Assembly: GCF_029892965.1 (NCBI RefSeq)
Contig: NZ_JARXWN010000009.1
Location: 62,001 to 126,000 of the forward strand
Origin: Dysgonomonas sp. PF1-14
Lineage (GTDB): Bacteria > Bacteroidota > Bacteroidia > Bacteroidales > Dysgonomonadaceae
Reading direction: 5' to 3'
Length of the DNA stretch: 64,000 nt
The notes below the pieces were generated by a model. The model did no database searches and was not told the DNA's origin. It worked only from the letters and a program-made list of their open reading frames with translations. This document shows, one piece after another, positions 37,842 to 64,000 of the stretch (positions are counted from its first letter, which is position 1; each line of letters starts with the position of its first letter). The translations under genes were made by a program, and so were the position numbers.

Positions 37842-38537
37842 TTAATTCCTATCTTTCAGCAACCAATTGCACCAGTTGTCCATGCCTGTGCCTTTTGTAG
37901 CAGAGACTTCAAAGAAGCATAGTTTATGGTTTACTTTCAAGGCATTTTCGCGTAGCTTGTTTATATCCGTATCCAGATAAGGAGCTAAGTCTATCTTGTT
38001 GATAACACAGATATCGGCTTCCTGAAACATATACGGGTACTTCAACGGTTTGTCGTCTCCTTCGGTAGTGCTGATAATCACCACTTTCTTGTCCTCGCCC
38101 AGATCGTACATGGCAGGACAAACCAGATTGCCGACATTTTCGATGAAGACCAGTGCATTATCGTCCGGATTCAACTTTTGTAATGCCTGCTTGATCATAT
38201 CGGCCTCCAAGTGGCAACCCATACCAGTATTTACCTGATAGGCAGACACTTCAAGAGCAGCTATACGGTCGGCATCGTTTGTGGTTTGTTGGTCGCCTTC
38301 TATCACATACACAGGTACTTGCCCCTTGATGCGACGGATAGTTTCTTCCAACAGGGAAGTCTTACCCGAACCGGGCGAACTCATAAGGTTGAGGCAAAAG
38401 ATGTTCTTTGAGTTGAAATAACCCTTGTTCTCATCGGCGATTATATTGTTGCGCGACAGGATATCTTCTTCTACGGCTATGATCATCTTTTCGTCTACCG
38501 TATATTTCTGTTCATTGGTTTTGTCTTGTTGGCTCAT
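37842..38537 (-). CDS. hypB: Hydrogenase nickel incorporation GTPase HypB
   Basis: This 231-residue protein has the P-loop SSPGSGKT (53-60), the internal metal site GMGCHLEADM (Cys108-His109), GNLVCPA (about 139) and the GTP-specificity motif NKIDLAPY. HypB hydrolyses GTP to drive nickel insertion into the hydrogenase large subunit, with HypA. The N-terminus lacks both the His-rich stretch and the CxxCGC nickel site of some HypB proteins, so nickel storage is unlikely. It is the last gene of the leftward accessory operon, 1 base after hypA. Confidence 0.97.
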   Translation of the reverse strand: MSQQDKTNEQKYTVDEKMIIAVEEDILSRNNIIADENKGYFNSKNIFCLNLMSSPGSGKTSLLEETIRRIKGQVPVYVIEGDQQTTNDADRIAALEVSAYQVNTGMGCHLEADMIKQALQKLNPDDNALVFIENVGNLVCPAMYDLGEDKKVVIISTTEGDDKPLKYPYMFQEADICVINKIDLAPYLDTDINKLRENALKVNHKLCFFEVSATKGTGMDNWCNWLLKDRN

Positions 38538-38538
38538 A

Positions 38539-38895
38539 TCAGTCTTTGGTTTTATTTTTTACGACTATCGACTTTATCCTCAGCTCTTTGCCTTTGAGTA
38601 TGCTTACACAATACGATCCGCAATGCGGACATGGTGAAAACAGGACATCGACAGGGAAGACTGCTTCGCAATCGCCGCATCGGCCTTCACCCGCTATATC
38701 GTGGCGTACGATACGGGCATTGTTGAGCATAGTGCCTTTTACAGAGCTTTCGAGGGCAAACTCGAGTGTATGAAGCTCTACTCCGGCAAGGCTGCCGATC
38801 TCGAGTTCGAGTTCTTCTATCTCTGTAGCCTGATGCTTTCGCGCCTGTTGTTCGGCTAGTTGTACAATGCTTTGAGCTATAGATAATTCGTGCAT
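38539..38895 (-). CDS. hypA: Hydrogenase nickel metallochaperone HypA
   Basis: This 118-residue protein begins MHELSIAQSI with the nickel-ligand His2. It carries the zinc site Cys73-x2-Cys76 and Cys89-x2-Cys92. Length is typical (113-118). It binds nickel and delivers it with HypB. It lies between hypF (6 bases) and hypB (1 base) in the same operon. Confidence 0.97.
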   Translation of the reverse strand: MHELSIAQSIVQLAEQQARKHQATEIEELELEIGSLAGVELHTLEFALESSVKGTMLNNARIVRHDIAGEGRCGDCEAVFPVDVLFSPCPHCGSYCVSILKGKELRIKSIVVKNKTKD

Positions 38896-38901
38896 AATGG
38901 T

Positions 38902-41148
38902 TTATAATCTTCTCGATGCGGCTACAGCCAGTTGTCCGGCAGCTATACCGCTATCGTTGCATGGTATCTTACAGGGAATGTATAACGGGATTCCCTCTTG
39001 CGAAAATAGTAAATGTAATTGTTCCGTCAAACGTTTATTCTGAAAACATCCGCCCGACAACACAACTTTGGTCGTACCGGTCTGGCTGAGAAGGAGTTTC
39101 GATTTTTCCAAGATAAGGTATGCCAATGAGTTATGCACCTTAGCTGAAATTTGCCCTGTATCAACACCATCGGCCAAATCGCGTAATACCCCTTCAAACA
39201 AGGAGCGTGACGAAATGACAGGGTTTTGATAGTCAACTGTATATCGGCTAACCATATCGTTATTTGCTGACTGTTCCAACAAAACAGGAGCTTCTGCCTG
39301 ACGAGTAGCTACATCGCACAGACCAAGCAGAGAAGACAGAGCATCGAACAAACGCCCTGCTCCGGAGGTCAGAGGTACATTTATACCCTTATCTATCATA
39401 GTTTTGAGCATATCTATCTTTGTATGTCCTAACCGCTCGATAAAGGATTGAGGTATGTCAAGTCCGTAATGATAGAGATAAGAAACCGCCATGCGCCATG
39501 CCTCATCCGAAGCCTTGTCTCCACCGGGCATAGGGACATATTCCAGATGTGAAAGACGGGTATATTCCTTCTTGTCGCATAGGAAGAACTCGCCGCCCCA
39601 TATTTTGCCGTCGTCACCCAATCCTGTTCCGTCCCACACGACAGCTATTACGGATTCATGGATTCCGTATTCGAGCATACAGGCAGCAGCATGGGCGTGG
39701 TGATGCTGTACCCTCTGCAATGGTATGGAATGAGCCAAAGCCATTTCTTCGGCTTCGCGGCTCGACATATAGTCGGGATGCAGGTCGCAAGCCAGTTGCT
39801 TCGGACTGAAACGGAAAAGATGGCGGAACCGCTCCAAAGATTCTTTATAGAAACTGAGTGTCTCCCAGCTTTTGAGATCGCCTATGTATTGGCTTTGTAT
39901 AACAGTATCGCCTTTACCCAATGCAAAAGTGTTTACTTTCTCTGCACCGAATGCCAGTATACCGTCAGCATTCACGTCTGCAAAGAACGGTTCGGGTACA
40001 TAGCCGCGCGAACGCCTTATCAGACATGGCTTATCAGCACAGACATGAAGTATAGAATCGTCTATACGATTGTGTATAATGCGATTGTGATGTAATATAA
40101 GGTCTACCTTTTCGCCGAACTGCCCTTCAGCCTCATCGGGTGATATGACAATGGGCAATTCGCTCAGATTACCACTTGTCATTACCAGTGCAGGAGAGCT
40201 TAAATGCTTGAACCAGTCGTAATGTAGCGGCATATATGGAAGCATACAACCCAAAGTATTCATGCCGGGATTGATTCCCGAAGCCAGTGCTTTGTGTTGC
40301 TTCAGCAATACGATAGGTCTACGCCACGACATGATGCTTTCTCGCTCCACATCGTTAAGTTGTGTATATTGTCGAAGATACTCCTCATCGCGGAACATCA
40401 CTGCAAAGGGCTTGGTATCTCTGTGCTTCACTTCTCTCAGGCGATTTACAGCCTGTTCGTTCGTCGCATCGCAGATAAGGTGATAACCGCCTATACCTTT
40501 AGCTGCTATCACTTTACCTGATGACAGTAGTTTTACTGACAAGGCGAGTAATTCTTCATAGCCTGTATATTCTACACCATCATACGTTGCATAATAAACA
40601 GGGCCGCAATAGTTACAAGCTACAGGCTGTGCATGGAAGCGCCGATCGTATATATCGGTATATTCCTTTTGACAGTCGGGACACATAATGAATTCAGCCA
40701 TTGTCGTATTCTTCCTGTCGTAGGGTAAGTCTTTGATAATGGAGAATCTGGGCCCACAATGCGTACAGTTGATAAAGGGGTAACCTATCCTGTGAGCTTG
40801 TGCCTGCCTGTCGTGCAAACAATCGGCGCATACAGCTATGTCGGGAGCTACCTGTGTAACTTCGTCCGACAGTGATTGACTTGGAATGATCTCAAAGTCT
40901 TTATAACCGACATTATCCTCTATTTCAGTGATATGGATATGATGAATAGCCGCAACTACAGGATGCTCTTCCTGTATACGCTGTACGAACCTATTACAAG
41001 CTTCTTCTGTTGTTTCGAGACGAATAACAACACCATCGTTGGTATTGGCAACCGTACCTTTCAGCCCCATCTGTTTTGCCAGCAGATAGATAAAGGGACG
41101 GAAACCCACCCCTTGTACAAGGCCTTGTATGTGTATTTGTGTTATCAC
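38902..41148 (-). CDS. hypF: Carbamoyltransferase HypF
   Basis: This 748-residue protein has the full HypF order. It comprises an acylphosphatase domain (1-90, VQGVGFRPF), two zinc-finger pairs (Cys107/110, 128/131, 156/159, 178/181), a YrdC-like domain (about 195-380) and a Kae1-like domain with HHHAHAAAC. It makes the thiocyanate precursor of the cyanide ligands from carbamoyl phosphate and ATP, handing it to HypE. The start codon is GTG; it shares one base with the stop of the upstream 81-residue gene (TAGTG), so translation is coupled. Confidence 0.97.
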   Translation of the reverse strand: MITQIHIQGLVQGVGFRPFIYLLAKQMGLKGTVANTNDGVVIRLETTEEACNRFVQRIQEEHPVVAAIHHIHITEIEDNVGYKDFEIIPSQSLSDEVTQVAPDIAVCADCLHDRQAQAHRIGYPFINCTHCGPRFSIIKDLPYDRKNTTMAEFIMCPDCQKEYTDIYDRRFHAQPVACNYCGPVYYATYDGVEYTGYEELLALSVKLLSSGKVIAAKGIGGYHLICDATNEQAVNRLREVKHRDTKPFAVMFRDEEYLRQYTQLNDVERESIMSWRRPIVLLKQHKALASGINPGMNTLGCMLPYMPLHYDWFKHLSSPALVMTSGNLSELPIVISPDEAEGQFGEKVDLILHHNRIIHNRIDDSILHVCADKPCLIRRSRGYVPEPFFADVNADGILAFGAEKVNTFALGKGDTVIQSQYIGDLKSWETLSFYKESLERFRHLFRFSPKQLACDLHPDYMSSREAEEMALAHSIPLQRVQHHHAHAAACMLEYGIHESVIAVVWDGTGLGDDGKIWGGEFFLCDKKEYTRLSHLEYVPMPGGDKASDEAWRMAVSYLYHYGLDIPQSFIERLGHTKIDMLKTMIDKGINVPLTSGAGRLFDALSSLLGLCDVATRQAEAPVLLEQSANNDMVSRYTVDYQNPVISSRSLFEGVLRDLADGVDTGQISAKVHNSLAYLILEKSKLLLSQTGTTKVVLSGGCFQNKRLTEQLHLLFSQEGIPLYIPCKIPCNDSGIAAGQLAVAASRRL

Positions 41149-41393
41149 TATTTGGCTTTTACCAGCTTTGACGAGATGAAGAACAGAAGCATGAAGATGA
41201 AGGACACAAAGAATAAGAAGCCGTATAACTCCATAGTATGCTCATGGTATACAATTCCGGATTCACTATCGTAATGATTTCCGAAATCATTATACTCCAT
41301 CTGCGAACGGCTATAGAACATGATCCCAAAGAAGATAGTGAACAGAGAAAGCAGCCCACCCAGAAAATACAGTATATACTTTGTCGGCTTCAT
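41148..41393 (-). CDS. Small two-TM membrane protein in the hyp operon
   Basis: This 81-residue protein has two TM segments (about 6-26 and 56-76) joined by a polar loop rich in Tyr, His, Glu and Asp (MEYNDFGNHYDSESG). It lies between the FmdE-like gene (10 bases) and hypF (1-base overlap), so it is very likely a real, co-translated gene. I recognise no family. The acidic and His-containing loop could bind metal or contact a partner, but this is speculation. Confidence 0.65.
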   Translation of the reverse strand: MKPTKYILYFLGGLLSLFTIFFGIMFYSRSQMEYNDFGNHYDSESGIVYHEHTMELYGFLFFVSFIFMLLFFISSKLVKAK

Positions 41394-41403
41394 CGATAGG
41401 AAT

Positions 41404-41937
41404 CTATTTTATCTCGAAAATCTCATCTCTATCCAGTTCGTACCAATAGCGAATAGCCAGTTCACGCACATATTCCCAATACATCGGCGCATGCCCCCAT
41501 CGCTTGACAGCTCCGGTTATCTCTGTTCTTATCATATTTAAAACCTCGTCCTTTATCTTGACATGAACAGACCTGTCATTTGTATGGAAAACAGCTTCGG
41601 GGAGCGGGCTATCAGTTGCTTGGGAAACAATCAGTCCATGCCCGAATGTTGCACTGGTACTTACCTGCAAACCATCGTTGAGACAACTTACCGGAGGCTT
41701 GTTGCCAGCCAAAGATGTAATACTTACACCACCTGCTTCGGCACTCAATCTGCTAAGGGCATAAATACCCATCTTAACTCCTATAATTGCATAAATACCC
41801 AGATGCCCATGCAACTCGTTTGTTAACACTCCGGCTCGCCATTCTTCAACTCCATAGCGTTCTATGGTTTTAGCTACCATAGGCCTCATGTCTGTAGAAT
41901 ATACAGCGGGTTCCAACGGGAAGGATTCAAATATCAT
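41404..41937 (-). CDS. FmdE-family protein at the head of the hyp operon
   Basis: This 177-residue protein has the FmdE domain signatures: HGHLGIY (His43, His45), GVKMG, then CLNDGLQ (Cys85, Asp88) and TSATFGHG (His100). FmdE was first described as a subunit linked to formylmethanofuran dehydrogenase, but stand-alone copies are common in bacteria without it, and no other such subunit is present here. The conserved His and Cys residues suggest a metal site. Its place as first gene of the hypF-hypA-hypB operon suggests a metal-handling role in hydrogenase maturation, which is inference. Confidence 0.8.
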   Translation of the reverse strand: MIFESFPLEPAVYSTDMRPMVAKTIERYGVEEWRAGVLTNELHGHLGIYAIIGVKMGIYALSRLSAEAGGVSITSLAGNKPPVSCLNDGLQVSTSATFGHGLIVSQATDSPLPEAVFHTNDRSVHVKIKDEVLNMIRTEITGAVKRWGHAPMYWEYVRELAIRYWYELDRDEIFEIK

Positions 41938-42102
41938 AGATATAGATTTTATTTATGGTTCATCTTTTATTGTTATCAAACAAGATCTGGACTATGGTTA
42001 AGCGCCCTCCGGCAGAAAATGTTGTCTAACTAACCGATTTACTGATACATATTACATTACGCATATATAGAAAAGGGCTTGCAGAACAATTTTCGCCAAC
42101 AA

Positions 42103-42110
42103 CAAAGTTA
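42103..42110 (-). promoter_or_regulatory. -7 box for the fmdE-hypF-hypA-hypB operon
   Basis: On the minus strand TAACTTTG is 165 bases upstream of the FmdE start, in the divergent spacer. No convincing -33 element is seen. Confidence 0.4.
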
Positions 42111-42164
42111 AACAAATAATCGGTTTTTGTAATCCATATGACTATTTCTTAAAAATATAATTGT

Positions 42165-42172
42165 TATATTTG
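42165..42172 (+). promoter_or_regulatory. -7 box for the hypCDE-hydrogenase operon
   Basis: TATATTTG lies 36 bases before the hypC start codon, giving a short leader. The divergent layout would allow one regulator to control both hydrogenase operons from this spacer. Confidence 0.5.
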
Positions 42173-42208
42173 AGATTGTATTTATCTCACACTAAAACCT
42201 TTAATGCT

Positions 42209-42454
42209 ATGTGCCTAGCCGTACCAGGAAAAATCATAAGTATAGATAATTCTATCCCCGACCTTACGATGGCTAAAGTGGATTTTGGCGGTATGCTGAA
42301 AGATATCTGCATACAATGGGTAGAAGCATCCGTCGGCAGTTACATACTTGCACATGCAGGAATGGCCATATCGGTGGTTGATGAAGAACATGCCGAAGAA
42401 ACGCTCGCCGACTTCGAGGCTATCGCACGATCTTTAGAAAATCCCGCAACATGA
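42209..42454 (+). CDS. hypC: Hydrogenase maturation chaperone HypC
   Basis: This 81-residue protein starts MCLAVPGKI; Cys2 is the essential metal-binding residue. I chose ATG at 42209 because it places Cys2 correctly; the longer reading from 42161 adds 16 unrelated residues and overlaps the -7 box. HypC carries the Fe(CN)2CO unit with HypD and delivers it to the large subunit. Its stop overlaps the hypD start (ATGA). Confidence 0.97.
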   Translation: MCLAVPGKIISIDNSIPDLTMAKVDFGGMLKDICIQWVEASVGSYILAHAGMAISVVDEEHAEETLADFEAIARSLENPAT

Positions 42455-43545
42455 AGTATCTGGATGAATATAGGGACAAGGAGCAGGTAAAAATGCTTGT
42501 AAATGCAATACGGAAAACCGTAACACGCTCATGGTCTGTCATGGAAATATGTGGCGGACAAACTCACTCCATAGCCCGCTATCGCATCGAAGATATGTTA
42601 CCACCCGAGATAAAATTATTACATGGACCCGGTTGCCCGGTATGTGTAACCCCGATAGAAACCATAGACCTTGCACTGGATATTGCCAGACGCCCGGAAG
42701 TTATTTTCACTTCGTTCGGCGATATGATGCGTGTACCCGGAACTATGGAAGATCTGCTGAGTGTGAAAGCTAAAGGTGCGGACGTCAGGATGCTATATTC
42801 CTCATTAGATGCGGTAGAGCTGGCAGAAAAAAATCCTGATAAGGAAGTGGTCTTCTTTGCCGTAGGTTTTGAGACTACTATTCCGGTACATCTTACAGCC
42901 GTAAGAGAAGCGCAGCGCAGAGGCTTGACAAATTTCTCCATCCTGGCATCGTTCTTTACAGTGCCTGCTGCAATAGACACCATATTGTCCGATCCTGAAA
43001 ACAAGGTGGACGGATTTCTTACAGCAGGGCATGTATGTGCTATAATGGGAAATAAAGATTACTATCCGTTGGCTGAAAAGTATAATCGCCCGATGGTAGT
43101 TACAGGATTCGAACCGATCGACTTATTATATGGTATATACAGGTGTATCCTCCAACTAGAAGCAGGAACGGCAAATGTAGAGAATGCTTACAAACGGATA
43201 GTACCAGAAAATGGTAATTCCGCATTCCAAAAGCTTATGAGCGAAATGCTGGAACCATTCGATCAGGAATGGCGCGGAATCGGGCAAATACCACTAAGCG
43301 GGTTAAGGCTGAAACCCAACTATAAGCAATATGATGCCGCAAAGAAATTTTCGACGGCAGATAAAATAAATAATATAAAGGTAAACAAAGCCTCTCTGGA
43401 ATGTATAGCCGGAGATATAATGAAAGGGAATAAACAGGCTGCCGATTGTCCGTATTTCGGAAAAGACTGTAATCCGGAGCATCCGGTAGGTGCACCGATG
43501 GTATCGTCCGAAGGTGTTTGTGCAGCATACTATAACTATAAATAA
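42451..43545 (+). CDS. hypD: Hydrogenase maturation scaffold HypD
   Basis: This 364-residue protein contains MEICGGQTHS (Cys34), GPGCPVCVTP (Cys61, Cys64), and Cys residues near the C-terminus for a [4Fe-4S] cluster (CPYFGKDC, SEGVCAAYY). It assembles the Fe(CN)2CO centre with HypC and HypE. It overlaps hypC by 4 bases and ends one base before hypE. Confidence 0.97.
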   Translation: MKYLDEYRDKEQVKMLVNAIRKTVTRSWSVMEICGGQTHSIARYRIEDMLPPEIKLLHGPGCPVCVTPIETIDLALDIARRPEVIFTSFGDMMRVPGTMEDLLSVKAKGADVRMLYSSLDAVELAEKNPDKEVVFFAVGFETTIPVHLTAVREAQRRGLTNFSILASFFTVPAAIDTILSDPENKVDGFLTAGHVCAIMGNKDYYPLAEKYNRPMVVTGFEPIDLLYGIYRCILQLEAGTANVENAYKRIVPENGNSAFQKLMSEMLEPFDQEWRGIGQIPLSGLRLKPNYKQYDAAKKFSTADKINNIKVNKASLECIAGDIMKGNKQAADCPYFGKDCNPEHPVGAPMVSSEGVCAAYYNYK

Positions 43546-43546
43546 T

Positions 43547-44584
43547 ATGGAGTTGAACTGTCCTCTACCCATCAGCGACAACGATCGCATACTGCTTGGT
43601 CATGGCAGCGGAGGGCGACTTACGCACCGACTGATATCCGACATATTCTATCCTGCATTCCGCAATCCGTTGCTGGAACAGGATCACGATGGCAGTATAT
43701 TTACCGTAGAGGGTGGTAAGATGGCTATATCTACCGACTCCTTTGTGGTAGACCCGATATTTTTTCCCGGTGGCGACATCGGCGATCTGGCTATAAACGG
43801 CACAGTGAATGATCTGGCTTGTTGCGGGGCAAAACCATTGTATCTTACAGCCGGATTTATTCTCGAAGAAGGTTTCCCTATGACTGATTTGCAACGCATT
43901 GTAAACTCAATGAAGGAAGCTGCCGACAAGGCCGGAATATACATTGTGTCGGGTGACACCAAAGTAGTAGAGCATGGTAAATGCGATAAGATATACATTA
44001 ATACTACCGGTATAGGAATTGTAGACAGCAATACAAATATATCACCCAAGAATGCTGCCGAAGGCGATGTGATCATTTGTAGCGCGCCGATAGGTGTACA
44101 TGGCATTACTATACTTTCTACACGCGAAAGTCTTGGCTTCGAAACCAATCTGAAAAGTGATACGGCAGCACTTAACAAGATGATAGCCGGATTATGTACC
44201 GGAATAAATGAAATACATGTATTGCGTGACCCTACCAGAGGCGGACTCAGCAGCACGCTGAACGAAATAGCACAAGCCGCCAATGTAGAAATAGAACTGG
44301 ACGAAGCGTCGCTCCCTATTCCCGATGCTGTACGTGCCGCATCCGAAATACTGGGATTAGACCCTTTGTATATAGCCAATGAAGGCGTTGTTCTGATCAT
44401 ACTCCCCAGAAAGTATGCTGCCGATGCGCTGAATATCATGCACCGCTTTTCTGAAGGCAAATCAGCTGCTGTTATAGGACAGGTGACTACCAGAGGTAAA
44501 GCCGGAGTAAAAATGAAAAACCTGTATGGCGGTCATCGCATTATTACCATGTTAAACGGTGACCAATTACCACGAATATGCTAA
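43547..44584 (+). CDS. hypE: Carbamoyl dehydratase HypE
   Basis: With the start at 43547 (MELNCPLPIS) it has 345 residues; the reading from 43490 lies inside hypD and is rejected. It has the PurM-like ATP-binding fold (LGHGSGG, STDSFVVDP, GDTKVVEHGK, RDPTRGGLSS). It ends in PRIC, whose terminal Cys carries the thiocarbamate converted to cyanide. It acts with HypF and HypC-HypD. It is followed by a 53-base gap before the small-subunit gene. Confidence 0.96.
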   Translation: MELNCPLPISDNDRILLGHGSGGRLTHRLISDIFYPAFRNPLLEQDHDGSIFTVEGGKMAISTDSFVVDPIFFPGGDIGDLAINGTVNDLACCGAKPLYLTAGFILEEGFPMTDLQRIVNSMKEAADKAGIYIVSGDTKVVEHGKCDKIYINTTGIGIVDSNTNISPKNAAEGDVIICSAPIGVHGITILSTRESLGFETNLKSDTAALNKMIAGLCTGINEIHVLRDPTRGGLSSTLNEIAQAANVEIELDEASLPIPDAVRAASEILGLDPLYIANEGVVLIILPRKYAADALNIMHRFSEGKSAAVIGQVTTRGKAGVKMKNLYGGHRIITMLNGDQLPRIC

Positions 44585-44637
44585 AGACAAAAACACATAA
44601 TACAAATAAGATCAACTAACTTAAATACTTTGTAAAT

Positions 44638-45750
44638 ATGGAAAACAAGAAACTATCCGTTTATGAAGAATGTCAAAAGAAAGGAGTCTCGCGCCGCGAT
44701 TTCCTTAAATTTTGTACAATGATGGGAGCTTTACTCGGGCTAGAATCTACCGGTGTTGCCCAAATAGTGGAAGCTATGGAGAAAAAGGCACGACTACCGA
44801 TTATCTGGCTACATTTGCAGGAATGTACCTGTTGCAGCGAATCATTTATCCGTACCGCCCACCCTATTCTGGCCGACCTCTTGTTCGACCAGATATCGCT
44901 GGACTATACCGAGACACTGATGGCTGCTGCGGGCGATCAGGCAGAAAAGAGTATGCATGATACAATGACCAAGTATAAAGGTGAATATATACTGATGATC
45001 GAGGGTTCTATCCCTACCAAAGACGAAGCGTACTGCTGTATAGGCGGACGCAGCGCCAAGCAGATAGTGGAAGAGGCTGCCGAAGGGGCAAAAGCCGTTG
45101 TAGCATGGGGCAACTGTGCATCGGCAGGATGCGTACAGGCTGCTAATCCGAATCCGACCGGGGCACGTCCGGCACACCGTATTATTAAAGGTAAGACAGT
45201 AATGAATGTGCAGGGTTGCCCTCCTATAGCAGAGGTCATGGCGGGAATAGTTGTGCATCTGCTTACATTCGGCACAATACCACAACTCGACAGTTTAGGA
45301 CGTCCTAAAGCATTCTATTCGCGCCGTGTACACGACACCTGCTATCGCCGCGCTAATTTTGATGCAGGGCTATTTGTAGAAAATTTCGATGATGAGAATG
45401 CTAAACGTGGCTACTGTCTGTACAAAGTAGGTTGTAAAGGGCCTAACACATATAATGCCTGCGGTATCATCAAGTGGAACGAAGGTACAAGCTATCCTAT
45501 ACAGAGCGGACATCCTTGTATCGGTTGCAGCGAAGAAGGATTCTGGGACAAAAGTCCATTCTACAAACGTAACCCTACAACTCATGGCTTCGGCATAGAA
45601 GCAACAGCCGATCAGGTAGGGCTGGCTTTGGGAGTAGCTACCGTTGCAGGAGCAACCGCACACGCCATAGCTACCAATATACGCAAGAAAAAACTCATCG
45701 ATAACGAAGAGCCTGTAAATGAGAGCAGCGAACACAGTGATAACCAATAA
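44638..45750 (+). CDS. hyaA: [NiFe] hydrogenase small subunit, oxygen-tolerant (group 1d-like)
   Basis: This 370-residue protein opens with a Tat signal (SRRDFLKF, Arg19-Arg20). The proximal cluster region has ECTCCSES with Cys63, Cys65 and Cys66, then GNCASAGC with Cys160 and Cys165, and GCPP with Cys194. Ordinary enzymes have four of these; the extra Cys65 and Cys165 match Cys19 and Cys120 of the Ralstonia membrane-bound hydrogenase. They predict a [4Fe-3S] cluster giving oxygen tolerance. Medial and distal ligands follow (HDTC 235, YC 260, GC 266, NAC 275, HPCIGC 294/297). A C-terminal hydrophobic anchor (about 326-346) holds it on the periplasmic face of the inner membrane. Confidence 0.96.
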   Translation: MENKKLSVYEECQKKGVSRRDFLKFCTMMGALLGLESTGVAQIVEAMEKKARLPIIWLHLQECTCCSESFIRTAHPILADLLFDQISLDYTETLMAAAGDQAEKSMHDTMTKYKGEYILMIEGSIPTKDEAYCCIGGRSAKQIVEEAAEGAKAVVAWGNCASAGCVQAANPNPTGARPAHRIIKGKTVMNVQGCPPIAEVMAGIVVHLLTFGTIPQLDSLGRPKAFYSRRVHDTCYRRANFDAGLFVENFDDENAKRGYCLYKVGCKGPNTYNACGIIKWNEGTSYPIQSGHPCIGCSEEGFWDKSPFYKRNPTTHGFGIEATADQVGLALGVATVAGATAHAIATNIRKKKLIDNEEPVNESSEHSDNQ

Positions 45751-45762
45751 ACACAAAAAACT

Positions 45763-47481
45763 ATGGCAGAAAGAATAGTCGTTGACCCGATCACCCGTAT
45801 CGAAGGTCACTTAAGAATAGAAGCAGAAATAGAAAACGGCGTAATCAAGGATGCTTTCAGTTCGGGCACAATGGTTCGCGGTATAGAGACCATCGTTAAA
45901 GACCGCGACCCGCGCGATGTATGGGCTTTCGTTGGACGTATTTGCGGTGTATGTACATCTACACATTCCCTTACTTCGGTGCGTGCAGTAGAAAACGCAC
46001 TGGACATCGTGATACCACCGAATGCCGAGATGGTACGCAACATTATGGCAAATGTACTTTTCATGCACGACCATGTAGTGCATTTCTACCATCTGCATGC
46101 CCTCGACTGGGTAGATGTGGTAAATGCCTTGAAAGCTGATCCTGCCGCAGCTGCGGCGGCTGCTCAAAAGTTATCGACATGGCCTAAAAGCTCGGAAGGG
46201 TATTTCAAAGGAATACAAGACAGAATTAAGAAATTTGTCGACAGCGGACAACTCGGTATCTTCGCAAACGGTTACTGGGGACACCCTGCATATAAACTCA
46301 CTCCCGAACAAAACCTGATTGCCACAGCTCACTATCTGGAAGCATTGGAATGGCAAAAGGAAATAGTAAAAGTACATGCTGTATTCGGAGGAAAGAATCC
46401 GCACCCTAACTATCTTGTAGGCGGTATGCCGGCCAGCATCAACCTGAATGAAGCCAATGCAATTAATGCCGAAAGGCTTGCATTTGTAAGGGAAAAACTG
46501 GAAGAAGCCAAACGCTTCATCGATCAGGTATATATTCCAGATATACTGCTCATCGGCAGTGTATATAAAGACGATTGGGGTAAAATAGGCGGAGGTGTGC
46601 ATAATCATCTTGCCTTCGGCGACTTCCCTATGAATGGTTCCGACCCTGAAAGCTATAAAATACCACGCGGTATTATCCTCGACAGGGATCTGACAAAGGT
46701 GCATCCGGTAGACGCTACTTCACCCGAAGAAATACAGGAATATATATACCACTCATGGTACAAATATACCAAAGGTGACAGCGCAGGACTGCATCCGTTC
46801 GATGGAGAAACTGAACTCGAATACACAGGCCCTCGTCCGCCATACAAACATCTGGACGTAACGGACAAGTACAGCTGGATAAAAACTCCACGCTGGAAAG
46901 ACAAACCAATGGAAGTAGGTCCATTGTCGCGAATGCTGGTTGCTTATGCCTCTGGAAAAGAGCCGCAAAAATCGCTGATAGACGACACATTGAAAGCGCT
47001 CGACCTGCCTGCCGAAGCACTATTCTCCACACTGGGCAGAACTGCTGCCCGCGCATTGGAATCGAAACTGAATGCCGACTGGGCACTTGAATGCTACGAT
47101 CAGTTGATAGCCAATCTGAAAGGTGGTGACGATCGCATGGTAAACAATGAGAAATGGGAAGAAAGTTCATGGCCTAAAGAAGCAAAAGGCGTGGGACTAA
47201 CCGAAGCTCCGCGCGGTGCTCTGGCTCACTTTGCCATAATAGAGAACAGCCGCATAAAGAACTATCAGATGGTGGTGCCTACAACGTGGAATGCTTCGCC
47301 TCGCGACGAAAAAGGGCAGTTATCGGCTTACGAGTCTGCTTTGGTAGGAACTCCTGTCCACGATCCTAAACTGCCGTTGGAAATATTACGCACTATACAC
47401 TCTTTCGACCCTTGTCTGGCTTGTGCAGTCCATCTGTACGATGAAGACGGTGACTATGTACATCAAATGGATACATTCTAA
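45763..47481 (+). CDS. hyaB: [NiFe] hydrogenase large subunit
   Basis: This 572-residue protein carries the nickel ligands in RICGVCTSTH (Cys61, Cys64) and DPCLACAVH (Cys551, Cys554). The last 15 residues after His557 are the peptide removed by the HyaD protease once nickel is inserted. It splits H2 at the Ni-Fe(CN)2CO centre and passes electrons to the small subunit; it crosses the membrane with that partner through the Tat system. It starts 12 bases after the small subunit. Motifs fit membrane-bound uptake group 1 enzymes. Confidence 0.97.
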   Translation: MAERIVVDPITRIEGHLRIEAEIENGVIKDAFSSGTMVRGIETIVKDRDPRDVWAFVGRICGVCTSTHSLTSVRAVENALDIVIPPNAEMVRNIMANVLFMHDHVVHFYHLHALDWVDVVNALKADPAAAAAAAQKLSTWPKSSEGYFKGIQDRIKKFVDSGQLGIFANGYWGHPAYKLTPEQNLIATAHYLEALEWQKEIVKVHAVFGGKNPHPNYLVGGMPASINLNEANAINAERLAFVREKLEEAKRFIDQVYIPDILLIGSVYKDDWGKIGGGVHNHLAFGDFPMNGSDPESYKIPRGIILDRDLTKVHPVDATSPEEIQEYIYHSWYKYTKGDSAGLHPFDGETELEYTGPRPPYKHLDVTDKYSWIKTPRWKDKPMEVGPLSRMLVAYASGKEPQKSLIDDTLKALDLPAEALFSTLGRTAARALESKLNADWALECYDQLIANLKGGDDRMVNNEKWEESSWPKEAKGVGLTEAPRGALAHFAIIENSRIKNYQMVVPTTWNASPRDEKGQLSAYESALVGTPVHDPKLPLEILRTIHSFDPCLACAVHLYDEDGDYVHQMDTF

Positions 47482-47493
47482 ACAGATTCAACT

Positions 47494-48255
47494 ATGAGAA
47501 GTCGTAGAGAAAAACTAAGAGAAGTATATGTCTGGGAACTGCCTGTACGAATCTATCACTGGGTAAACGCATTATGTATCGTTATCCTGTGTATTACGGG
47601 ATTCCTTATTGCCGATCCGCCGTCACTGATGAGTGAGACAGAAGCCAATTTCAGGTACTGGTTCGGTACGGTACGCTTTATTCACTTTGTTACGGCATTT
47701 GTATTCTTCTTCAATTTTATGTTTCGCATTTACTGGGGATTTGTAGGGAATAAGTATGCCAGCTGGAAGAACTTTATCCCATTGAAGAAATCGCAATGGA
47801 AAGAGCTGATAGAAGTGATAAAGGTGGATGTATTCATGATCAAAAACAAGCCTGTAGACAGTATCGGACACAATCAGGTTGCCAGCAGCACTTACTTTAT
47901 CATGTTTCTGGCATTCCTTATACAATGTATCACCGGATTCGGATTATACGCCCAGATGAGCAAAGCCGCATTGCCGAAGCTTTTCGGATGGATGGTGCCG
48001 CTTATGGGAGGCGATCTGATGGTACGCCATATTCATCATTATGCTATGTGGTTCTTTATTCTCTTTGCTATAGGGCATATTTACCTCGTATTCTATCACG
48101 ATTATATCGAGCGGCGTGGTGTGACTTCGTCCATGATAGGCGGCTGGAAATTTGTTGAAGAAGAAGTAGCGGAAGCGGAAGAAAAGAAAGAAGCAGAAGA
48201 AAGAGCAAAGAAGATGGAAAAACAAGCATCTGCTAAAATAGCTGTGGAAGAATGA
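47494..48255 (+). CDS. hyaC: Hydrogenase cytochrome b subunit
   Basis: This 253-residue membrane protein has four TM segments (about 22-42, 64-84, 130-152, 180-205) and haem-ligand histidines in YHWVNA, FIHFVTA and RHIHHYAMW. It takes electrons from the small subunit to quinone. The last 35 residues are a highly charged Glu/Lys helix (EEEVAEAEEKKEAEERAKKM), not usual for the family. It overlaps hyaD by 4 bases (ATGA). Confidence 0.93.
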   Translation: MRSRREKLREVYVWELPVRIYHWVNALCIVILCITGFLIADPPSLMSETEANFRYWFGTVRFIHFVTAFVFFFNFMFRIYWGFVGNKYASWKNFIPLKKSQWKELIEVIKVDVFMIKNKPVDSIGHNQVASSTYFIMFLAFLIQCITGFGLYAQMSKAALPKLFGWMVPLMGGDLMVRHIHHYAMWFFILFAIGHIYLVFYHDYIERRGVTSSMIGGWKFVEEEVAEAEEKKEAEERAKKMEKQASAKIAVEE

Positions 48256-48695
48256 ATACACTGATACTTGGCGTAGGAAATTTATTACTGAAAGACGAAG
48301 GTGTGGGAATCCATGTGATTCGCGCACTGGAACAAGAAAATTTACCCTCCGGCGTCCATCTTATGGATGGCGGAACCGGAGGGTTTCACCTCATCAGTTG
48401 GATAGAGAAGTACGACCGCATCATAATGATAGATGCTACACTGGACAAGAATCCGCCCGGAACAGTACGTGTGTTAAGACCGAAATATTCATCGGAGTTT
48501 CCCCCATTGATGAGTGCCCATGAAATAGGTCTGCGCGATATGATGTCTATCATGGAACTGACCGAAACGATGCCCCTGATAGATCTGATTGTAATATCTG
48601 TTGAAGATATCAGTGAAGTGGGTATGGAGCTGACACCGGCGGTAAAAAAAGTTATACCCGAAGTTGTGGAAAAGATAAAGCAGATGACTCTATAA
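48252..48695 (+). CDS. hyaD: Hydrogenase maturation protease
   Basis: This 147-residue endopeptidase of the HyaD/HybD type has GVGNLLLKDEGVG with Glu16, IDATLD with Asp61 and SAHEIGL with His90. These are the three metal ligands that read nickel occupancy. It cleaves the C-terminal peptide of the large subunit. It is the last hydrogenase gene; a hairpin covers its stop codon. Confidence 0.94.
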   Translation: MNTLILGVGNLLLKDEGVGIHVIRALEQENLPSGVHLMDGGTGGFHLISWIEKYDRIIMIDATLDKNPPGTVRVLRPKYSSEFPPLMSAHEIGLRDMMSIMELTETMPLIDLIVISVEDISEVGMELTPAVKKVIPEVVEKIKQMTL

Positions 48696-59095: not shown

Positions 59096-59111
59096 ATAAA
59101 TTTTATTAGGT

Positions 59112-60233
59112 ATGAACGTGAAGAAGATTGTTTTTGGAGCAATGGCTCTGTTAATCATGGTATCTTGCGGTGGTGGCAAGAACGCCAATCCTTTTGGAGG
59201 AGGTGACGAAGGACCTCAGGCATATAAAACGACTGTCTTAGCAGAACAGTCAATCGAACTGGAAACAGTATATCCTGCCACTATCAAAGGTCAGGAAGAT
59301 ATAGAAATAAGACCGCGTATTGATGGATTTATCGATGCAATACTTGTGGACGAAGGATCTGTCGTTAGCAAAGGGCAAACTCTATTCAGAATCAATTCAC
59401 CTTCAGCCGACCAGGCTGTAACTACAGCAGCAGCAGCTGTAAAAAGTGCTGAAGCTCAGGTAGAAACAGCACAGCTGAATGTGGACAGGATCGCTCCTTT
59501 GGCTGAAAAAAACATTGTTAGTGTTACACAATTGTCAACATATCAGAATGCTTTGCTGGCAGCAAAAGCAACACTGGATCAGGCTAATGCTCAGCTGACT
59601 AATGCGAAAGCAACAAAGAGTTGGACAAATGTAACCAGCCCGGTTAGCGGAGTAGTAGGCACTATTGACTTCCGTCAGGGAAGTTTGGTGAACTCAGCCA
59701 ATACGTTGACAACAGTATCCAGCATTAACAATGTATTTGCTTACTTCTCTATCAACGAAAAGGAGTTTGTAAATCTGTTAAGCGGATTGGAAGGAAAAAC
59801 TCAGGCTGAGAAAATTAAAAATATACCTGATATAACCTTGAAAATGGCTGATGGTTCCATATATCCGGAAAAAGGTAAGATCAAAACCATTACCGGACAG
59901 GTTAACGTAAATACCGGAACAGTAAATCTGCGTGCCGAGTTCCCTAACTCGCAAGGCATACTCCGCAGTGGCTTTAGTGGTAACGTGTCTATCCCAAGAC
60001 ATCTGCAGAATGCCATTGTTATTCCTCAGGATGCTACTAAAACACAGCAGAACAAATATCTGGCATACAAAACACAGGGCGACACCATAGCTGTACAAAC
60101 ACTAATCTCAGTTATTGCGACTCCTGACGGAAAAAGTTATGTTGTAACAGACGGACTCAAAGCCGGAGATCGTATCATCGTAGAAGGTATGGTGACAATG
60201 GCTGATGGTAAGAAAATCATCGTAGAAAAATAA
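59112..60233 (+). CDS. RND efflux periplasmic adaptor (membrane fusion) lipoprotein
   Basis: This 373-residue lipoprotein (LLIMVSCGGG, Cys19) has the AcrA-like order: barrel-sandwich half (PRIDGFIDAILVDEGSVVSKG, about 72-92), alpha hairpin (about 100-170), second lipoyl half (TSPVSGVVGTIDFRQG) and beta-barrel (about 210-290). The membrane-proximal domain ends in GLKAGDRIIVEG. It links the inner-membrane pump to the outer-membrane channel. It follows MarR by 16 bases and precedes the pump by 32. Confidence 0.95.
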   Translation: MNVKKIVFGAMALLIMVSCGGGKNANPFGGGDEGPQAYKTTVLAEQSIELETVYPATIKGQEDIEIRPRIDGFIDAILVDEGSVVSKGQTLFRINSPSADQAVTTAAAAVKSAEAQVETAQLNVDRIAPLAEKNIVSVTQLSTYQNALLAAKATLDQANAQLTNAKATKSWTNVTSPVSGVVGTIDFRQGSLVNSANTLTTVSSINNVFAYFSINEKEFVNLLSGLEGKTQAEKIKNIPDITLKMADGSIYPEKGKIKTITGQVNVNTGTVNLRAEFPNSQGILRSGFSGNVSIPRHLQNAIVIPQDATKTQQNKYLAYKTQGDTIAVQTLISVIATPDGKSYVVTDGLKAGDRIIVEGMVTMADGKKIIVEK

Positions 60234-60265
60234 ATCCGGAAAATAAATAATAAAACAAGATTACA

Positions 60266-63200
60266 ATGTTAAAAACATTTATAGAAAGACCTGTATTATC
60301 CACCGTTATCTCCATCATCATTGTGGTGCTGGGTATAATCGGTCTGGCTACACTACCGGTAGAACAGTATCCGGATATTGCGCCGCCTACAGTGCAGGTA
60401 CAAGCATATTACACCGGTGCCAATGCCGATGTGGTAATGAACAGTGTGGTAATCCCCCTCGAAGAGCAAATCAATGGTGTAGAGGGTATGACATATATGA
60501 CATCGTCGGCTAGTAATGGGCTGGCTCAGGTCAGAATATTCTTTAAACAAGGAGTAAATCCCGATATCGCAGCCGTAAACGTACAAAACCTTGTTGCGCG
60601 TGCCACTCCATTGTTGCCGACTGAGGTAACGCAAGTAGGGGTAACCGTACAAAAACAACAGAATAGTACATTGCTGGGATTAACGCTATCGACTGACAAC
60701 CCCGACTATGACGGAGAGTTTATACAGAACTATGCAAATATCAACATCCTGCCACAGATCAAGCGTGTTTACGGGGTTGGTAACGCCAGCGTGTTCGGGG
60801 CAAAAGACTACTCCATGCGCGTATGGCTAAAACCGGACATAATGGCATCGTATAAGATTTCTCCTCAGGAAATCATTGGTGCATTGCAGGATCAGAATAT
60901 CGAAGCAGCTCCGGGTGAGTTGGGAGCTAACAGCGACCAGTCGTTCCAGTATACAATGAGATATACAGGAAAGTTGAAGACTGCCGAAGAATTCGGGAAC
61001 ATCATCGTACGTTCTCAGAATGGGCAAATATTAAGGGTAAAAGATGTTGCAGATGTAGAATTGGGATCACTGAACTACAGTGTTGTTTCACAGACAAATA
61101 TGGACCAGTCTGTATTTGTCCAGATCAACCAAACTGCGGGTTCTAATGCGCAGGAGGTTATCAACAATGTGAAAGCTGTATTGAATGATGCTGAAAAAGA
61201 ATTACCTAAAGGGGTAAAGATCAACTACATCATGGACTCCAGCGAGTTCCTTGATGCCTCCATCGAAAAAGTAATACATACATTGTTAGAAGCATTCGTA
61301 CTTGTATTTCTTGTGGTGTTTGTGTTCCTGCAAGACATCAGGTCTACCATCATTCCGGCTATTGCCGTACCGGTAGCTATTGTGGGTACATTCTTCTTCT
61401 TACAGATATTCGGATTTTCTATTAACCTGCTGACTCTGTTTGCTCTCGTACTTGCCATTGGTATTGTGGTGGACGATGCCATAGTCGTCGTCGAGGCCGT
61501 CCATGCTCAGCTCGATGCGGGAGAGAAAGACCCGAAACAAGCTACTTTAACAGCTATGGGTGAAATTGCACCGGCCATTGTATCCATCACACTGGTTATG
61601 TCTGCTGTGTTTGTCCCGGTCAGCTTTATCGGGGGAACGAGTGGTATCTTCTTTAAGCAATTTGGTCTTACTCTGGCTATAGCCATCCTTATATCGGCAG
61701 TCAACGCTTTGACTTTGAGTCCGGCTCTCTGTGCCTTGTTCCTGAAACCTCATGACAATAAGCATGAGAAGAAAGGCTTTATGCAGCGTTTCTATCACAA
61801 CTTCAACATCATGTTCAACAGTGCAACACAGAAGTATAAAAAGAGCCTGCAATTTTTAGGAAAACGCGGACACCGTTGGATCACAGTTGCCATCATAGTT
61901 GTAGCTTCAGGTATATTATTCGGTCTGATGAAGCTCTTGCCTACCGGTTTCGTACCGAACGAGGATAGTGGTGGTGTAATCGGATTTGTTACACTTCCTC
62001 CCGGAGCATCTCTGGAAAGATCCGACTCTATGGTGATGCAGGTTGTAAAAATAGCTCAGGAAATAGAAGGCGTACAATCTGTAACCAATATTACAGGGGT
62101 AAACTTCATGGCCGGTATGGGAAGCTCGTATGGTACTATAATTGTAAAAATGGAACCATGGAACCAACGTAAACTTTCGACCAATGAGGTAACAGCGTTA
62201 CTTAAAGAAAAAACAGCTCATATAAAAGACGCTACATTCTTCTATGTTGCCACTCCTACCCTTCAGGGATTCGGACTTGGTGCTGGAGTTGAAATGGAAT
62301 TGCAAGACCGTATGGGTGGCGATATCAATAAATTCTATGAAATTACGACCAACTTCATTGCTAAATTGCAGCAACGAGATGAGGTAATGATGGCTATGAC
62401 CAACTTCAACCCTGGTTTCCCTCAAAAAGAGATCAGTGCGGATATACCGAAAATCAAAGCTGCCGGACTAACATTATCTCAGGTGATGAATACCCTTCAG
62501 GTATATGTCGGAAGTTCATATATATCTACCTTCAACCTGTATGGAAAGCAGTTCCGTGTAATGGTACAGGCTGCTCCTGAATACAGAAGTAAGTTGGAAG
62601 ACCTGAACGGATTGTTTGTACAGACAGCAAGCGGAGATATGGCGCCTATTACAGAATTTATCCATGTAACTGATGTTAGTGCACCTCCTACTTTGAGTCG
62701 TTTCAATATGTACTCATCTATGGACGTAACTATCATCCCAAATATGCTGGAAGGTAAAAGTACAGGGGACGTTCTGAAAATCATTGATGAAATGTATCAG
62801 GACAAAACGATTTTCCCAGAGGGATATACATACGAATATGGAGGAATGACCCGTGAAGAAGCAGGAGCAGGAAGCCAGACCATACTTATTTTCGGTATCT
62901 GTATCATCTTCGTTTACTTGCTGTTGTGTGCCTTGTACGAAAGTTACATTATACCACTGGCAGTATTATTCTCTCTGCCTGTAGGTTTGGCGGGCGTATT
63001 CATCTTCCTGATGATATTCGGTGTGTCGCAGGGTATTGTAAATAATATTTATGTCCAGATATCGATGGTCATGCTCATCGGACTATTGGCGAAAAATGCA
63101 ATTCTGATTGTGGAATACGCATTGCAACGCCGCCAGCAGGGTATGAGTATTGTAGAAGCCGCCGTAAACGGAGCTGTAGCACGTCTTCGCCCGATCTTGA

Positions 63201-63436
63201 TGACATCGTTTGCTTTCATCGCCGGATTGTTCCCGCTATTTATTGCAAGCGGAGCCGGAGCTATCGGTAACCGGTCTATCGGTATCAGTGCCATCGGTGG
63301 TATGTTTATAGGAACAATGATTGGAGTCTTGGTTATTCCGTCACTCTACATCATATTCCAGACACTTCAGGATAAAATAAGTAAATCAGGTATGATAAAC
63401 TCGAACGATGAGTTTATAAACAAACAAGGTAAATGA
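60266..63436 (+). CDS. RND multidrug efflux pump, HAE1/AcrB-like
   Basis: This 1,056-residue pump has 12 TM segments and two large periplasmic loops. The proton-relay residues match AcrB: Asp403-Asp404 in GIVVDDAIV and Lys943 in LAKNAILIVEYA. FIERPVLSTVISI at the start, GAFVLVFLVVF-like TM2 and the gate loop FGLGAGVEMELQDR are family features. It exports drugs, detergents or bile-like compounds using the proton gradient, with its adaptor and outer-membrane partner. The stop overlaps the start of the next gene (ATGA). Confidence 0.96.
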   Translation: MLKTFIERPVLSTVISIIIVVLGIIGLATLPVEQYPDIAPPTVQVQAYYTGANADVVMNSVVIPLEEQINGVEGMTYMTSSASNGLAQVRIFFKQGVNPDIAAVNVQNLVARATPLLPTEVTQVGVTVQKQQNSTLLGLTLSTDNPDYDGEFIQNYANINILPQIKRVYGVGNASVFGAKDYSMRVWLKPDIMASYKISPQEIIGALQDQNIEAAPGELGANSDQSFQYTMRYTGKLKTAEEFGNIIVRSQNGQILRVKDVADVELGSLNYSVVSQTNMDQSVFVQINQTAGSNAQEVINNVKAVLNDAEKELPKGVKINYIMDSSEFLDASIEKVIHTLLEAFVLVFLVVFVFLQDIRSTIIPAIAVPVAIVGTFFFLQIFGFSINLLTLFALVLAIGIVVDDAIVVVEAVHAQLDAGEKDPKQATLTAMGEIAPAIVSITLVMSAVFVPVSFIGGTSGIFFKQFGLTLAIAILISAVNALTLSPALCALFLKPHDNKHEKKGFMQRFYHNFNIMFNSATQKYKKSLQFLGKRGHRWITVAIIVVASGILFGLMKLLPTGFVPNEDSGGVIGFVTLPPGASLERSDSMVMQVVKIAQEIEGVQSVTNITGVNFMAGMGSSYGTIIVKMEPWNQRKLSTNEVTALLKEKTAHIKDATFFYVATPTLQGFGLGAGVEMELQDRMGGDINKFYEITTNFIAKLQQRDEVMMAMTNFNPGFPQKEISADIPKIKAAGLTLSQVMNTLQVYVGSSYISTFNLYGKQFRVMVQAAPEYRSKLEDLNGLFVQTASGDMAPITEFIHVTDVSAPPTLSRFNMYSSMDVTIIPNMLEGKSTGDVLKIIDEMYQDKTIFPEGYTYEYGGMTREEAGAGSQTILIFGICIIFVYLLLCALYESYIIPLAVLFSLPVGLAGVFIFLMIFGVSQGIVNNIYVQISMVMLIGLLAKNAILIVEYALQRRQQGMSIVEAAVNGAVARLRPILMTSFAFIAGLFPLFIASGAGAIGNRSIGISAIGGMFIGTMIGVLVIPSLYIIFQTLQDKISKSGMINSNDEFINKQGK

Positions 63437-64000
63437 TTATGATAAGAAAATATACAAAAGGTGTGATTCTGTTGGGAGTAGTACTCTCAATGGGACTCAC
63501 CTCCTGCGGAGTCCTGAATTCAAAATATAAAGCACCTGAAATAGATACTCAGGACATGTTCAGGGGAGAGAACCCGACAGATACAACAACGATTGCAAAT
63601 ATTCCATGGAGAGAATATTTCAGAGATCCTGCCCTTCAGGCATTAATAGACGAAGGTTTGGCCAATAACTACGATCTGCGCATTGCATATACACGTATTC
63701 AACAGGCCGAAGCCGGACTATATGTAGCCAAATCGGCGTACTTCCCCACTGTGGCACTAGGTGGCCAGGTTACACATACGCAAGTAAGTAAGGGTCCCGA
63801 TGGTAAAGAAAGAGTACTGGGCTACAATGGCGGAGACCAATGGGCACTGGGATTTGTGGTGCAATGGGAGGCTGATATATGGGGAAAACTCAATAGCAAA
63901 ACCAAAGCGCAATATGCAAATCTGGTAAGTACATACGGTTATCGCAATCTGATACAGACATCTCTGATTGCTAATATAGCAACTACCTATTACTCGTTGC
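63433..64000 (+). CDS. TolC/OprM-type outer-membrane efflux lipoprotein, 3' end outside window
   Basis: The first 189 codons are visible. It starts at ATG 63433 (overlapping the pump stop) or ATG 63439 in the same frame. A lipoprotein signal (GLTSCGVLNSKY) is followed by the typical start of the outer-membrane factor domain (WREYFRDPALQALIDEGLANNYDLRIAYTRIQQAEAGL, as in the OprM/NodT family). It forms the exit channel of the RND system. The remainder lies beyond the window. Confidence 0.93.
   Translation, partial: MIMIRKYTKGVILLGVVLSMGLTSCGVLNSKYKAPEIDTQDMFRGENPTDTTTIANIPWREYFRDPALQALIDEGLANNYDLRIAYTRIQQAEAGLYVAKSAYFPTVALGGQVTHTQVSKGPDGKERVLGYNGGDQWALGFVVQWEADIWGKLNSKTKAQYANLVSTYGYRNLIQTSLIANIATTYYSL

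Follow-up and report, generated by a model that had tools for sequence, protein, structure and literature searches.

A pair of genes at positions 44638-47481 of the 64,000-nucleotide stretch of Dysgonomonas sp. PF1-14 DNA analysed here, referred to below as the window, raises the question of whether a member of the Bacteroidales carries a respiratory [NiFe] hydrogenase that withstands oxygen, and to what use such an enzyme would be put. The original prediction for this locus was an oxygen-tolerant uptake hydrogenase, and it drew on six cysteines around the proximal cluster of the small subunit. In the reading that we consider probable, the locus encodes a periplasmic, membrane-anchored [NiFe] uptake hydrogenase of the group 1d type, whose six cysteines likely bind a [4Fe-3S] cluster and which would oxidize H2 in connection with anaerobic respiration and low levels of oxygen.

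Both open reading frames are intact and encode a small (370 aa) and a large (572 aa) hydrogenase subunit. With scores far above the family cut-offs (small subunit, 477 bits with NCBIfam hydA at a cut-off of 179.5; large subunit, 776 bits with Pfam NiFeSe_Hases at a cut-off of 25.8), the assignment to the [NiFe] hydrogenases is secure, and the residues characteristic of group 1, namely both Ni-Fe CxxC motifs of the large subunit and the Fe-S ligands of the small subunit, are present. A search of the 4.58 Mb, 49-contig genome for [NiFe] enzymes returned this single full hydrogenase, together with two further weak matches that span about 68 profile positions and lie under the family cut-off. The genes hypCDE (42206-44584) are located upstream on the strand of the subunit genes, and hypBAF (37842-41148) on the opposite strand (Table 1). 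The start of hypE was chosen by us inside the open reading frame 43490-44584, and its identity is supported by Pfam and homology rather than by an NCBIfam scan.

Table 1. Genes of the hydrogenase locus, with their coordinates in the window and the features on which their assignment is based.
Feature	Coordinates	Strand	Remarks
Hydrogenase small subunit	44638..45750	+	Tat signal; six proximal-cluster cysteines 63, 65, 66, 160, 165, 194
Hydrogenase large subunit	45763..47481	+	Cysteine ligands of Ni-Fe and counterpart of His229 conserved; Gly at the position of Glu73
b-type cytochrome subunit, HyaC/HoxZ/CybH type	47494..48255	+	TIGR02125 above cut-off; Ni_hydr_CYTB
Hydrogenase maturation protease	48252..48695	+	TIGR00072 above cut-off; HyaD/HybD subfamily TIGR00140 below cut-off; HycI
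hypC	42206..42454	+	Family match
hypD	42451..43545	+	Family match
hypE	43550..44584	+	AIRS/AIRS_C; 71% identity to annotated P. distasonis hypE
hypF	38902..41148	-	Family match
hypA	38539..38895	-	Family match
hypB	37842..38537	-	Family match
FmdE-domain protein, between hypF and hypC	41404..41937	-	PF02663 51.3 bits, cut-off 22.9
Small ORF between hypF and FmdE gene	41148..41393	-	DUF4064 below cut-off; 39% match in L039/L064

All six predicted cysteines are found where they had been placed, and they align with the six of the membrane-bound hydrogenase (MBH) of C. necator and of E. coli Hyd-1, where we take them to be residues 17, 20, 115 and 149 beside the extra 19 and 120. The spacing had been described as that of MBH, which is correct as far as the alignment of all six is concerned, but the two extra cysteines lie 100 residues apart in the window and 101 in MBH, corresponding to a one-residue gap in the alignment. 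Since the similarity to MBH extends over the whole length of the small subunit (E 1e-128), a chance match is excluded. The nearest PDB chains of this subunit are MBH HoxK (433 bits), 3ayx (399) and Hyd-1 (396), with Hyd-2 at 270, and Glu76 is present besides the six ligands. The two extra cysteines by which group 1d is recognized have been named as Cys19 and Cys120 in MBH, where swapping them out (Cys19Gly/Cys120Gly) lowers O2 tolerance (PMC10583674); both have their counterparts in the window. When 101 distinct small subunits, among them those of the window and the reference enzymes, are aligned, 98 rows cover both extra sites; 84 of these have Cys at both, and all 98 have Cys at the remaining four proximal sites. 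The extra cysteines are either both present or both absent throughout these 98 rows, none of which has a single one; where they are missing, the residues are Gly/Gly (13 rows) or Gly/Asn (one row).

The placement among oxygen-tolerant enzymes was checked with a maximum-likelihood tree of 98 of the 101 small subunits, three short rows being excluded. The window is placed in a clade that consists mostly of six-cysteine enzymes and includes MBH, Hyd-1 and further Bacteroidota; within it, the window groups with two MAGs of its own genus (91% identity), Massilibacteroides and Parabacteroides. Outside the clade are E. coli Hyd-2 and two Chloroflexota rows, whose position is unsure; this outgroup is thin, consisting of three rows on long branches, and groups 1b, 1e and 1h are missing from the references. 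'Group 1d' is therefore used here in the sense of clade and cysteine motif, not of a HydDB classification. The b-type cytochrome partner that also belongs to this group is encoded in the window. Judged from sequence, the locus is a sound candidate for a group-1d-type uptake hydrogenase, but an ordinary one, and putatively oxygen-tolerant.

Three observations speak against a simple reading as an oxygen-tolerant enzyme: the residue at large-subunit position 73, the closest structural relative of this subunit, and the assembly genes. In the PDB, the large subunit is matched best by 3myr (805 bits), presumably the Allochromatium vinosum enzyme, followed by 4c3o (749 bits), which we take to be Salmonella Hyd-5. 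A. vinosum has been placed among the species with O2-sensitive enzymes (Bowman et al., 2014, PMC3940037). According to the same study, large-subunit Glu73 is highly conserved in tolerant enzymes, and its exchange in Salmonella Hyd-5 (Glu73Ala) abolishes H2 oxidation in air; it is named there as a correlate of tolerance and is not a group-defining residue. In the window this position is Gly. A large subunit is available for 82 six-cysteine rows, that of the window among them; residue 73 is Gly in 36, Glu in 27, Gln in 15, Ala in three and Ser in one. With Glu in only 27 of these 82 rows, the residue cannot serve to define six-cysteine enzymes, and the Gly of the window together with this spread implies either that Glu73 is dispensable in this branch or that tolerance is lower than assumed in many six-cysteine enzymes. 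The proximity to 3myr and the absent Glu73 would also suit a conventional group 1 enzyme that is sensitive to oxygen and whose extra cysteines form no [4Fe-3S] cluster. This we regard as very improbable, given the complete set of six ligands accompanied by Glu76, the higher score of the small subunit against MBH than against Hyd-2, and the position inside the mostly six-cysteine clade.

The maturation set had been called full. For HypA, B, C, D and F and the maturation protease, which exceed their family cut-offs, and for HypE, recognized by its Pfam domains and its identity to the P. distasonis protein, this description is accurate. It does not extend to the families HyaE (PF07449) and HyaF/HoxQ (PF04809), which have no match in the whole genome, or to HoxL/O/Q/R/T/V, for which no open reading frame within the window matches; an assembly system of the MBH/Hup or Hya kind is thus missing as judged by HyaE/HyaF genome-wide and by HoxL/R/T/V within the window. 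Among 140 sequences compared, many of them from short loci, open reading frames with a Hox or HyaE/F protein as best match are confined to an alphaproteobacterial locus (L054), the C. necator and E. coli references and one case in L096. The latter (genome G167) is a HoxR-like (rubredoxin) frame of 42% identity within the hydrogenase locus, and the sole Hox-like best match among the Bacteroidota loci compared. As neither of the assembly factors HyaE and HyaF/HoxQ could be found, assembly of the enzyme probably takes place in cells free of oxygen.

A possible, if somewhat doubtful, explanation of these features is that the six-cysteine cluster is kept for one-way oxidation of H2 with acceptors of higher potential, for example fumarate, in a mainly anaerobic cell, and that turnover in air is poor. 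Gly73, which the window shares with the largest fraction of six-cysteine rows, and the lack of HyaE and HyaF matches would be in keeping with it, as would the redox up-shift of the six-cysteine group that is discussed by Couto et al. (2015, PMC4486115). In that study, green sulfur bacteria are also credited with six-cysteine enzymes only, so the motif need not imply a host that uses oxygen, a point that likewise counts against the oxygen-tolerant reading. The distribution of cytochrome bd oxidase, however, argues against this explanation and in favor of an oxygen-tolerant enzyme: CydA is commoner in Bacteroidales genomes with the hydrogenase (39 of 42) than in the others of the order sample (246 of 351; Fisher p 0.0009, kinship ignored). 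The Fisher tests require independent genomes, a condition from which these related genomes depart, and they presuppose that the hydrogenase and CydA counts come from the identical 393 genomes.

For the group-1d-type uptake enzyme that we favor, the course of events would be as follows. By homology to the family mechanism, the folded heterodimer would leave the cytoplasm by the Tat pathway, H2 would be split at the Ni-Fe site, and electrons would pass from the proximal via the medial to the distal cluster, and from there through cytochrome b into the quinone pool. The six cysteines would most likely form a [4Fe-3S] proximal cluster able to supply a second electron, by which oxygen would be cleared from the active site. 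The most likely use would be H2 oxidation tied to anaerobic respiration, with additional use of low oxygen via cytochrome bd oxidase. The predicted respiratory uptake type is supported by the cytochrome b partner, by the Tat signal, and by TatC and CydA in the genome, which has one CydA match, on a contig other than that of the hydrogenase; NrfA has no match in the genome. TatC presence says little, because 328 of the 393 genomes of the order sample have it, and Tat as a limiting trait was dropped on this count. In one locus (L080, genome G187, 94% complete), a hydrogenase small subunit with a Tat motif occurs in a genome with no TatC match, probably owing to an assembly gap.

Of more importance than the window enzyme itself is its comparison with relatives that differ in the cysteines or in residue 73. 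The order sample contains 42 Bacteroidales matches, the window among them. Both extra sites are covered by 39 of these, of which 36 are six-cysteine and three four-cysteine enzymes, the latter in genomes G116, G310 and G485 (loci L104, L078 and L099). To these may be added G353 (L101), which has Gly at the second extra site, the only one covered; owing to partial coverage, G395 shows Cys at the second site only, and G288 covers neither. The tree needs five trait changes, likewise with both extra columns masked, and the five are forced by well-supported branches in the careful tree, compared with only three in the quick masked tree. An AU test rejects a tree that holds the 12 four-cysteine rows of the clade together as one group (p 0.005, on which long branches may weigh). 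With Hyd-2 as outgroup, the simplest account would be one gain followed by four losses, namely in Bacillota, in G485 with G353, in G310 and in G116. The firmest case of loss is G116, which nests with two six-cysteine rows (support 99/85) and has the codons GGC and GGT at the extra sites, compared with TGC and TGT in these two rows, a difference of one base each. Its contig measures 5.7 kb in a 700-contig assembly, and membership in this genome is therefore less sure than the sequence. G310 is located on a long branch at an unresolved fork. The large subunits of both G116 and G310 keep Glu73.

The change made in the laboratory in MBH, Cys19Gly/Cys120Gly, thus seems to have occurred naturally among relatives. 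CydA has no match in two of the four four-cysteine genomes (G116 and G353, the latter 78% complete) versus one of the 37 six-cysteine genomes (G216), with G395 scored as six-cysteine and G288 excluded; the numbers behind this difference are tiny (Fisher p 0.02), and it too speaks against one-way oxidation as the reason for keeping the cluster. It is plausible, and in our judgement evenly balanced, that the Bacteroidales hold a natural series of Gly73 six-cysteine enzymes without the aerobic chaperones, Glu73 six-cysteine enzymes, and four-cysteine revertants (G116 by one base per codon) that keep Glu73, in which the revertants would be oxygen-sensitive and the tolerance of the Gly73 subtype differently tuned. 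If this is true, what the special cluster costs and what it is good for could be tested among relatives, and natural enzyme pairs could reveal why [4Fe-3S] is kept and whether Glu73 is truly needed. Four-cysteine forms within the Bacteroidales were not found in the literature searched, which leaves most subscription journals outside, and we make no claim that they are unpublished.

With a limit of E <= 0.001, 5 of 101 genomes in the family have a homologue, compared with 42 of 393 in the order and 103 of 395 in the phylum; most of the phylum hits come from a single family (f136), and some of the hits are distant. Two genomes of the same family as the window (G036 and G037) carry a Flavobacterium-type form with 59-61% identity and another gene order, and five genomes from other families have enzymes 77-85% identical to that of the window. 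The cluster (37842-48695) has a G+C content of 45.0%, higher than in each of 107 sliding segments of 10.85 kb taken from the window, and the flanking window frames have no match in seven of the eight relatives' loci tested, some of whose flanks are short. G+C content and unmatched flanks suggest horizontal movement or rearrangement, of which they are not proof. The exception is L040 (1698-7402) of Massilibacteroides, where adjacent frames match window positions 59100-63999, about 10 kb from the cluster, at 54-73% identity; in L040 the matching stretch sits immediately upstream of hypC. Transfer by plasmid was considered on account of P. distasonis NZ_OY725764 (L084, 'plasmid 19') and rejected: besides the full hydrogenase cluster, this contig bears guaA, mltG and a gene for a 16S rRNA methyltransferase, and it was typed as non-mobilizable. 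As it may be a misassigned chromosomal piece, it is not taken as evidence of mobility.

The original prediction had presented such an enzyme as unusual for Bacteroidota, which goes too far, as six-cysteine and group 1d enzymes of this phylum were published in 2015, 2016 and 2025. Couto et al. (2015, PMC4486115) assign six-cysteine enzymes only to the CFB group, and in their analysis four Firmicutes four-cysteine enzymes fall among the six-cysteine ones; a group 1d enzyme from Bacteroidetes is listed in HydDB (2016, PMC5037454); and the Parabacteroides 1d enzyme is described as that of a human gut lineage whose H2 metabolism is still to be investigated (Welsh et al., 2025, PMC12578642). In view of these reports, the window enzyme belongs to an already known kind. 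For Dysgonomonas, the literature search yielded nothing on this hydrogenase. The window extends a known family, and it fits the view that some Bacteroidales burn H2 by respiration besides making it.

A gene for an FmdE-domain protein beside hypF is also found, among the loci compared, in L038, L039/L064 (one contig) and L065, at 63-67% identity. The window protein keeps HGH and one Cys; two cysteines of its PDB relative 2gvi are absent. A function as maturation factor was not adopted, what speaks for it being the FmdE domain, a distant match to 2gvi (E 1.2e-5) and the adjacency in four genomes; a literature search on FmdE together with hydrogenase led mostly to papers on archaea.

Among known systems, the nearest is that of P. 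distasonis (WP_005855017/WP_005855015), from the Bacteroidota branch of HydDB group 1d, which has the same set of subunits, six cysteines, Gly at position 73, 78% small-subunit identity and the shared order hypBAF / hypCDE-small-large-cybH-protease, but whose record does not list the FmdE-domain gene and the small frame that the window has between hypF and hypC. The Flavobacterium-type hydrogenase (L063; also G036 and G037) likewise has six cysteines, but differs in its small subunit (59-64% identity), its hyp order, its Gln at position 73 and its separate clade. E. coli Hyd-1 (HyaABC) shares six cysteines, cytochrome b and protease with the window, whose genome, in contrast, has no HyaE/HyaF match and Gly in place of Glu73; in E. 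coli appCB follows hya, whereas CydA is encoded on a separate contig in the window genome. The MBH of C. necator (HoxKGZ) differs by its Glu73 and by HoxL/O/Q/R/T/V, which have no match in the window, and resembles the window enzyme in the six cysteines, small-subunit Glu76, Arg193 and Pro242, the cytochrome b and 57.9% identity over residues 7-326.
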